From positions 1 through 35,427 of the forward strand of contig SBAX01000061.1 in the NCBI GenBank assembly GCA_005240095.1: DNA of 35,427 nt, written 5' to 3'. Source of the stretch: Phycisphaera mikurensis (GTDB lineage: Bacteria; Planctomycetota; Phycisphaerae; UBA1845). Under the pieces are notes generated by a model. The model searched no databases. It saw only the letters and a list, made by a program, of their open reading frames with translations, and had not been told where the DNA came from. Positions 12,202 to 14,607 of this stretch are shown here, one piece after another. A program made the translations under genes and the position numbers. Position 1 is the stretch's first letter; every line of letters starts with the position of its first letter.

Positions 12202-13677
12202 ATGGCACTGACCGTCACGAACACCAACACGATGGCGCTGCTGAATATTCTGAACAAGAATACTCAGTTGCAATCCAACACCTTCAAGCAGCTCACCACA
12301 GGCAAGCGGATCAACACCGGGAAAGACGACCCGGCGGGGATGATCGCCCTGTCCTCCCTGGAGGCGGAGCTTACCGCGGTGAATGCCACCCTGGTCAACA
12401 ACCAGCGGACGGACGCGATGCTCACCGTGGCGGACTCGTCCATCGGGGAGATCAGCACGCTGCTGAGCGACATTGAATCGCTGATCGTCTCCACCACGAG
12501 CAAGACGAACATCACGGATTCGGAGATCGCCGCGAACCAGTCGCAGATCGACAACGCCTTGGCGGCGATCGACCGGATTGTCAGCACCACGAACTTCAAC
12601 GGCAAGCGGCTGCTGGACGGCAGCATGGCTATCGATACCAGCGGAGCTTCGGGCAACACCTACCTGAGCAACCTCCGCGTCTTTGCCCGCAGCCAGGACA
12701 CGACCGATACCTCGGTGACGGTGACGCGGGTCTCTTCCGCGACGGTGGCCTCGGCCGCCTTCGCGTTTGCTGGGGCAACGGCTCGGACATCGGGTACCAC
12801 CTCCCTGGCCATCAAGGGGGCTCTGGGGACGGCCAACGTGTCCCTGGCCAGCGGCCTGACCCAGACCCAGATGGTCGCGGCGATCAACGCGGTCAAGAGT
12901 CAAACCGGCGTGTCCGCCATCCAGAACGCCACCAATATCAAGCTCAACGCCACCCAATACGGGGCCGACGCGTTTGTCAGCGTCGACGTGCTTTCCGGAG
13001 GGAAGATCAACGTCAACTACGGCCTGGCCACGTCGGACAGCAACACCACCAATGACATGCAGAACATCGCCAAGCTGACCGGAAAAGATGTGGGAATCAC
13101 CATCAACGGGCAGACGGCCTCCTCAGACGGCCTGGACGTTTACTACAGCACCAACAGCGGACTGAACCTGCAGTTCACGGTCAGCGAAGACTTCGGCAAG
13201 GGCAACACCGGAGGCACGACGTCCACTTCGTTTACGGTTCGTGCGTCCGGCGGGGCGACGTTCCAGCTTGGAACCACGGCCAGCACGCGGCAGACCATCG
13301 GCATCGACTCGCTGGCCACGTACAACCTCGGCGGCAGCAACGGCGCCGCCAAGCTCAGCGAGCTGAAGAGCGGCGGCACCAAGCAGCTCAAGACGGACAC
13401 GTCCGGCGCGCTCACCGCAGTTCGTGAAGCCATCACCGACGTGGTGGGCATCCGCGGGCGCCTCGGCGGGTTCCAGAAGTATCAGGTGGGCAGCTCGATC
13501 AACGCCCTCAAGGCGGCCCAGAACGGTCTGACCCAGGCCACCAGCGCCATCGGCGACACCGACTACGCGCTGGCCACCTCCAACCTGAATCGCGAGTCGG
13601 TGCTGGTTCAGGCCGGCGTTTCGCTCCTGGGAATCGTCAATCAGCAGGCCTCGCAGATTCTGGCCCTGCTCGGCTAG
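12202..13677 (+). CDS. Flagellin
   Basis: The 491-residue protein is the structural subunit of the flagellar filament. The conserved N-terminal D0/D1 coiled region ('LNKNTQLQSNTFKQLTTGKRINTGKDDPAGM') and C-terminal D1/D0 region ('LATSNLNRESVLVQAGVSLLGIVNQQASQILALLG') bracket a variable Ser/Thr/Gly-rich surface domain. That domain has one flagellin IN-type motif at about residues 200-235 ('SLAIKGALGTANVSLASG'). It has no signal peptide, as expected for type III export. The gene stands alone: no other flagellar gene, chaperone or csrA is adjacent. A strong terminator follows. The name fliC or hag would fit; I leave the symbol open. Confidence 0.95.
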   Translation: MALTVTNTNTMALLNILNKNTQLQSNTFKQLTTGKRINTGKDDPAGMIALSSLEAELTAVNATLVNNQRTDAMLTVADSSIGEISTLLSDIESLIVSTTSKTNITDSEIAANQSQIDNALAAIDRIVSTTNFNGKRLLDGSMAIDTSGASGNTYLSNLRVFARSQDTTDTSVTVTRVSSATVASAAFAFAGATARTSGTTSLAIKGALGTANVSLASGLTQTQMVAAINAVKSQTGVSAIQNATNIKLNATQYGADAFVSVDVLSGGKINVNYGLATSDSNTTNDMQNIAKLTGKDVGITINGQTASSDGLDVYYSTNSGLNLQFTVSEDFGKGNTGGTTSTSFTVRASGGATFQLGTTASTRQTIGIDSLATYNLGGSNGAAKLSELKSGGTKQLKTDTSGALTAVREAITDVVGIRGRLGGFQKYQVGSSINALKAAQNGLTQATSAIGDTDYALATSNLNRESVLVQAGVSLLGIVNQQASQILALLG

Positions 13678-13745: not shown

Positions 13746-13792
13746 GCAGCGGGTCGCGGACGAAACTCCGCGGACCCGCTGCTCGTTTTTTT
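13746..13792 (+). terminator. Strong intrinsic terminator of the flagellin gene
   Basis: GCAGCGGGTC (13746-13755) pairs with GACCCGCTGC (13773-13782), extended inward by GCGGA/TCCGC around a CGAAAC loop, with one bulged base. A run of seven T (13786-13792) follows after three bases. Confidence 0.92.
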
Positions 13793-13832
13793 GGGCGAGC
13801 GGGCGGAAGTGGTCACCGGGGCACGGCGCAAG

Positions 13833-14000
13833 TCATTTCCGTTTCTTGGTGCGGAATGACCAGAACAAGAAGGCGGGGGCGCCCAGCAGCACCATGCTCG
13901 TACCGAGCACGTCAACGGGGTGCCCTCAGCAGTAGGCGCACTTGAGGGCGATTCCGCCAACGGGAACAGCGGCCAGCAGAATTCCGAACAACATATTCAT
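13833..14000 (-). CDS. Small membrane-hairpin protein interrupted by in-frame UGA; candidate selenoprotein or decayed gene
   Basis: The ORF has 55 codons and an in-frame TGA at codon 25 (13926-13928). Codons 1-24 read 'MNMLFGILLAAVPVGGIALKCAYC'-like: a hydrophobic helix (4-19), then K-C21-A-Y-C24. After the TGA the same frame gives G-H-P-V-D, a second hydrophobic helix (31-49, ending 'FLFWSF') and a basic tail 'RTKKRK', then a normal stop. Both halves look like one two-helix membrane protein, with Cys-x-x-Cys-UGA in the connecting loop. GGAG lies 11 bases before the ATG. A stem of 8 pairs with a GTA loop follows the UGA (13893-13911). Read-through with selenocysteine is possible; a Trp TGG to TGA mutation is the main alternative. 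It lies 37 bases after the SRPBCC gene, which also carries a stop. Confidence 0.42.
13893..13911 (-). promoter_or_regulatory. SECIS-like hairpin downstream of the in-frame UGA
   Basis: On the minus strand CGTGCTCG pairs with CGAGCATG (one G-U pair) around the loop GTA. The loop starts 22 bases after the UGA and its first base is G. General descriptions of bacterial SECIS elements ask for a stem-loop shortly after the UGA with G among the first loop bases. Such hairpins also arise by chance in GC-rich DNA. Confidence 0.3.
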
Positions 14001-14037
14001 GGTTTGTCGTTCTCCAACTGCGGCGTTAAGGCCTCGG

Positions 14038-14607
14038 CTACTCCTCGAGCATCGCCTGGAGCCGGTCGAGGTTCTTGCCCCAATAGGTTTTCATTCTCGC
14101 CGCCTCGGCAGCGCCGGGCAGCTTGCTGTGCTGAACGGTCACCTGCGTCTTGCCTGGGCCCTTGCGAAGAAACGACACTTCGATGGCCGTGGCGCTGCCG
14201 TCGCGATCCCAGGCCGCTCGGATGGACTTGCTTGCTGTGGCCTTGCGAATACGGGTCTTGCCGCCCGGCAGCCATTGCGCACGGAGCTTGGCGTCGCGAA
14301 GGGCGCGAAAGGCGTCGGCGACCGGGGCGGCAATGGTCTTGCTGCGGCTGATCTGGAAGCCGTCCGGTTTTTCGTGCTTTTGCCGCAGCCCCCTGGCCTG
14401 CTCATACCCGACGGTGACCATCTGTTGCCACCAGGGCCCCACGCCCGGGATACCGCTCACAATGCCTACGATTTGTCTGTGGTTCAATTTCCGCGCTCCG
14501 GCCTTGTCGAGCAGCGAGAGCCACTCCTTCTACGTCTTGCCCGTGGCCGCCTCCACTGCGGCATCGCCGATCCCGCCGATCTTGTCGGACTTTCCCTTAC
14601 CCTTCAT
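14038..14607 (-). pseudogene. DUF4287-SRPBCC (AHSA1-like) protein interrupted by an in-frame UAG
   Basis: An ATG at 14607 opens a frame reading 'MKGKGKSDKIGGIGDAA...ATGKT', then TAG (14530-14532), then 'KEWLSLLDKAGARKLNHRQIV' and on to residue-level continuity. The family normally reads ATGKxWxEW at this spot, so the TAG most simply replaces a Trp TGG. Without the first part, a TTG at 14487 gives a 149-residue product starting inside DUF4287. The rest is intact: 'GVGPWWQQMVTVGYEQARGL' (DUF4287), then the START-like SRPBCC domain with 'KTIAAPVADAFRALRD', 'WLPGGKTRIRKATASKSIRAAW' and a helical end. Such proteins are uncharacterised. Translation re-initiation, suppression or a dead gene are all possible. 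Confidence 0.75.

Follow-up and report, generated by a model that had tools for sequence, protein, structure and literature searches.

The locus and its genes

The window, by which we mean the whole analysed stretch of 35,427 nucleotides, contains on its minus strand a short frame of 55 codons whose codon 25 is an in-frame UGA, and which we annotate as a putative selenoprotein gene. Upstream of it on the same strand is an AHSA1/SRPBCC gene, and a flagellin gene on the plus strand converges with it. The features are as follows.

12202-13677 (+): flagellin gene, convergent with the selenoprotein gene
13833..14000 (-): putative selenoprotein gene, 55 codons with UGA (Sec) as codon 25, from homology to 82 other genes
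13835-13833 (-): its stop codon TGA, by direct reading
13842..13919 (-): predicted helix 2, residues 28-53, running into the basic tail RTKKRK (AlphaFold2)
13893..13911 (-): bacterial SECIS stem-loop, from covariation and synonymous-shuffle tests
13926..13928 (-): UGA selenocysteine codon, UGA in 82/83 homologues and TGC in one
13926..13931 (-): vicinal Cys24-Sec25 dyad at the helix-helix turn, Cys at -1 in 72/82
13935..13997 (-): predicted transmembrane helix 1, residues 2-22 (AlphaFold2, pLDDT about 70)
14011..14015 (-): Shine-Dalgarno-like GGAGA, 10 nt 5' of the ATG, by direct reading
14038-14607 (-): AHSA1/SRPBCC gene with an N-terminal DUF4287-like part, upstream of the selenoprotein gene

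Read on the minus strand, 14000..13836 gives MNMLFGILLAAVPVGGIALKCAYC-UGA-GHPVDVLGTSMVLLGAPAFLFWSFRTKKRK, followed by the terminal TGA, and GGAG-like sites stand at the place corresponding to GGAGA in many of the homologues. The initial annotation had described a 55-codon frame with TGA at codon 25 directly after C-A-Y-C, followed by a stem of eight pairs with loop GTA, the loop starting 22 bases past the UGA; we recovered the frame on the minus strand and the stem-loop at 13911..13893(-). Its coordinates were correct but came without a strand, and the plus-strand reading of 13833-14000 is meaningless. The in-frame stop it had noticed in the neighbouring gene is real, but it is a TAG and not a TGA: it is codon 26 of the AHSA1/SRPBCC gene (14532-14530), within GKT*KEW, at a position where we presume that a Trp belongs. 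This TAG is decay or error and, being TAG, is unrelated to selenocysteine. By eye, a GC-rich inverted repeat with a run of T behind it was also noticed near 13747-13793, between the flagellin and selenoprotein genes.

No conserved operon was found across the loci of the family, and neighbouring genes cluster among close relatives only. At one locus (L136) the selenoprotein gene lies 2 nt 3' of a co-oriented gene for a TauE/SafE-type exporter, an arrangement not seen elsewhere, and at L136 and a second locus from the same genus (L137) a 655-residue frame begins 58 nt downstream of the selenoprotein gene.

Conservation of the UGA and of the stem-loop behind it

Homologues were found in two orders of Planctomycetota. 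Reading frames were extracted for 83 distinct genes, in which the column of the UGA holds TGA 82 times, TGC once and TGG never. A translated search of 60 related genomes gave matches in 28, with one in-frame TGA in 27 of them, and when the order was searched by profile, 48 of 114 genomes had the family. A phylum-wide sample placed the family outside the class as well; within the order of one such out-of-class genome 34 of 154 matched, and almost all of these matches have TGA, apart from a few weak ones. Named records that carry the family include Phycisphaerae and Planctomycetota MAGs, e.g. JAJDDX010000474, CP070827, and JAJRSR010000064. Some weak phylum-wide matches without a stop (G093, G258, and G275) look like chance and were set aside. 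Searches of plasmids and of viral contigs returned no homologue; a phage search returned one marginal tblastn match (MT838456.1, 4326-4472 (-), 43%, E 0.03), to an unannotated human-gut phage contig, which is probably chance. A same-genus genome that is 98% complete (G001) yielded no copy of the gene, which is thus dispensable. Two Sec forms stand in tandem in genome G459 (L123:5990-6241 and L123:6366-6614), and second, diverged copies were seen in G003, G015, and G033, including a variant of U-C order (L138).

Selection on the protein was measured on both sides of the UGA, and pN/pS was 0.33 before it and 0.45 after it (SECIS codons excluded). Synonymous change thus exceeds amino-acid change on either side, which argues that translation continues through the UGA.

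Since single-sequence folding of the window hairpin was not significant (z -1.1), comparative tests were used. Across 51 distinct sequences the 8-bp stem is formed in 92.9% of pair cells, with a covariation score of 0.380 against 0.208 when shuffled (0/500 shuffles as high); the signal was lost when the partner was slid by 1 to 3 columns (score at most 0.161), and RNAalifold independently returned the same helix minus its innermost pair. The stem region also encodes the conserved LGxGM, and for that reason synonymous codons were resampled: real genes form on average 7.25 of the 8 pairs and the synonymous-codon shuffles 5.73 +/- 0.13, while the MFE of the hairpin segment is -10.4 (family mean) in real genes and -6.4 +/- 0.3 kcal/mol in the shuffles. 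Moreover, individual codons are frozen, namely Leu at +7 (CTC in 55/55 genes, background 0.23), Gly at +8 (GGT in 53/56, background 0.14), Thr or Ser at +9 (ACG in 22/22 and TCG in 20/20) and Gly at +10 (GGC in 42/45), while codon use outside the SECIS positions varies among homologues. Those members in which the Leu codon has become GTC or ATC have changed the partner too (GTCGGTTCGATC, ATCGGTTCGATC).

Published rules for bacterial SECIS elements ask for a stem of 4-16 bp, a loop of 3-9 nt, a distance of 16-37 nt from the UGA, a G in the first two loop positions and an MFE at or below -7.5 (PMC13188914). All are met here, with 8 bp, loop GUA, a loop start 22 nt past the UGA in the window gene and the family mean MFE given above. 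No SECIS family of Rfam matched, and a model search for the same element in other genes of this genome gave next-best hits of E 0.06 and worse, which are not convincing. Judged from these sequence comparisons, the stem-loop that follows the UGA is a bacterial SECIS and is conserved.

The only Cys gene among the homologues (L130:6013-6390, genome G038, TTG start) lies directly 5' of a Sec form (L130:6406-6645) as a tandem pair, and its C-terminal tail is rich in His and Asp (HDHKHGHG...HDHDHDHE). A stem pair that is kept in 60/61 Sec genes is G-G in this gene, and GGT in the loop has become GGA. The loss of SECIS pair integrity in the Cys copy is suggestive, though it is one case only. This copy, in tandem with a Sec copy, is apparently a secondary replacement.

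Probable reading of the UGA as selenocysteine

The genome that carries the window also carries tRNA-Sec (70.3 bits, anticodon TCA), SelB, with SelA adjoining it on contig C109, and SelD. The selD gene has an in-frame UGA of its own, in ASCAGUAGK (L150, G000:C411), and likely encodes a Sec-SelD. Among 60 relatives, counted by hand, the family occurs in 32 of the 50 with SelB over cut-off and in 1 of the 10 without (Fisher p = 0.003); the one exception, G041, has a SelB-like frame of 727 residues under the cut-off.

Our computations thus establish a conserved UGA, a SECIS under selection at the RNA level and a complete selA/B/C/D set, and the decoding of this UGA as selenocysteine, which the initial annotation had proposed, is supported by all three; the decoding event itself is inferred. 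The two checks suggested there, the codon of homologues at the UGA column and a search for selA, selB, selC, and selD, came out accordingly: UGA in 82 of 83, Cys in one and never Trp, and all four genes in this genome. We assign the gene to a new family and put the probability that it truly encodes a selenoprotein at about 0.94, on sequence grounds and with no experimental proof. Ribosomes on the minus-strand message would reach the UGA at codon 25, where SelB with Sec-tRNA-Sec would bind the stem-loop, whose loop begins 22 nt downstream, and insert selenocysteine. The product would be a 55-residue inner-membrane hairpin with its Cys-Sec pair at the turn between two helices, and this pair most likely acts as a reversible selenenylsulfide/selenolate site, by which a periplasmic or membrane substrate would be reduced or captured.

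Two other accounts of the UGA were weighed. It could be a selenium-dependent switch that yields 24 residues at low selenium and 55 at high, the ratio being the signal, as any SECIS gene could in principle; however, there is no conserved downstream gene to regulate and the residues past the UGA (GHP, LG, P) are conserved as protein, and we regard this as very improbable. A pseudogene made by Trp-to-stop decay or by sequencing error at codon 25, the former of which the initial annotation had kept as a competitor and for which the upstream AHSA1/DUF4287 gene with TAG at an expected Trp might speak, is practically ruled out, since the UGA is kept in 82 homologues and never replaced by Trp, purifying selection extends past it, the SECIS covaries, the neighbour's stop is TAG and not TGA, and the recurrence of the same UGA in dozens of independent assemblies makes sequencing error untenable. 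Genome-wide reassignment of UGA to Trp was likewise rejected, as UGA also serves as the gene's own stop codon, Trp is absent from the column in every homologue and the genome has the Sec machinery.

The protein family, its possible function and known systems

Taking the UGA as Sec, the conserved motif of the family is xCUG(H/D)P, with a vicinal Cys-Sec pair, followed by LGxGM. The CxxCU motif proposed at first does not hold, since the family does not keep the first Cys of CAYC. A Cys stands at -1 to the Sec in 72/82 members and some Cys within 4 residues in 79/82; in the ten without Cys at -1 it is usually nearby (C-x-x-x-U, C-x-x-U, U-C), and three lack any Cys within four residues of the Sec, so that not every member has a strict Cys-Sec pair. 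Short members (about 55 residues with a basic tail) are predicted by AlphaFold2, from a 59-row alignment and with moderate confidence (pLDDT about 70), to fold into a hairpin of two helices whose turn bears CU, and a third helix is predicted for a long subfamily of about 85 residues; in both the two- and the three-helix form the Cys/Sec pair stands at the end of helix 1. In the short form the N-terminus and the stretch behind helix 2 carry a positive mean charge (mean net charge +2.1 after TM2), and the turn averages close to zero. Because of this distribution, and from charge only, both termini of the short form are probably cytoplasmic and the Cys-Sec turn periplasmic.

Scanning 20 members against Pfam and NCBIfam gave no convincing model match, and among the 119 prokaryotic selenoprotein families catalogued in 2026 (PMC13188914 Table 1) there is no two-helix membrane family with CUG(H/D)P. 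The family is new to the libraries and literature searched; these were open-licence papers only, and an earlier description elsewhere is not excluded.

It was suggested that the product is a small redox or metal-handling membrane protein, which remains a plausible inference. As neighbours are not shared beyond close relatives, function has to be argued from chemistry and analogy; function, topology, substrate, and partner are all inferred, and we place thiol redox slightly ahead of soft-metal handling. Both are compatible with Sec at the UGA.

With membrane thiol redox, a Cys-Sec selenenylsulfide would reduce periplasmic disulfides, peroxides or methionine sulfoxide. The majority of characterised selenoproteins have a redox role (PMC13188914), the Cys shifts position yet stays near the Sec as expected of a resolving thiol, and a Cys hardly ever takes the place of the Sec; against this, there is no thioredoxin-like fold, no recurring redox partner gene, and three members lack any close Cys, so that we hold redox as our first candidate with somewhat less than even confidence. 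Transport or capture of a soft metal or organometal, by analogy with MerE and MerT, is a tentative second: Hg(II), organomercury or another thiophilic metal would pass across or off the membrane via Cys-Sec, the conserved His/Asp at +2 serving as an additional ligand. In MerE, a small protein of two helices, mercury transport depends on the pair Cys28 and Cys30 and on His residues close by (PMC5715351), several catalogued CU-motif selenoproteins are described as metal-binding or organometal proteins (SaoL, HgcA, and MbdU; PMC13188914), and the sole Cys paralogue has the His/Asp-rich tail; nevertheless, no mercury-transporter model of Pfam or NCBIfam matched 20 members at E up to 1, no mer or metal genes recur beside the gene, and the pair of the mer proteins is within helix 1 and not at the turn. 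Some function other than these two is unlikely, though it cannot be neglected.

According to the deep-Sep paper, every known selenoprotein seems to have homologues with Cys, and its method may filter out selenoproteins that lack them (PMC12013277). Here Cys homologues are nearly absent, and pipelines built on Cys/Sec pairs could therefore miss the family, which is widespread and of the sort that current pipelines pass over when they rely on Cys homologues or drop very short genes. Because there is only one Cys copy among 83 and known bacterial selenoproteins have Cys homologues, it is possible, though we would not yet favour it, that this is a Sec-obligate membrane protein family born with Sec and not from a Cys ancestor; if so, Planctomycetota would have a new class of selenium chemistry embedded in the membrane. 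In any case, a hairpin of 55 residues with a single Cys-Sec pair offers a simple experimental system in which to ask why a membrane site needs selenium and not sulfur.

Among known systems, MerT and MerE resemble the family as small helical membrane proteins with a vicinal or near-vicinal Cys/Sec pair, and MerT (PF02411) is catalogued as containing selenoproteins (PMC13188914 Table 1); the family also fits a layout of two or three helices with such a pair in or at helix 1. However, the catalogued Sec motif of MerT is C/SxxU and not CUG(H/D)P, no profile of either protein matches the family, no mer operon was seen at the selenoprotein loci, and the pair here is at the hairpin turn. The CU-motif selenoproteins SaoC, SaoL, HgcA, KCU-star, and MbdU share the vicinal Cys-Sec dyad, whereas the family matches none of them in NCBIfam and forms a predicted membrane hairpin of two or three helices. 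Mammalian thioredoxin reductase ends in a C-terminal GCUG and thus has the same Cys-Sec-Gly order, but it is an unrelated protein, and the CUG here is internal and in a membrane hairpin. Like the classical bacterial SECIS, for example that of formate dehydrogenase genes, the element is a stem-loop just past the UGA, its loop begins with G and then G/U, and its 22 nt fall within the 16-37 nt rule; unlike it, the stem and loop sequence (GCUCGGUnnRGGC) is nearly frozen across two orders. Sec decoding here is canonical, and the novelty is the protein family.
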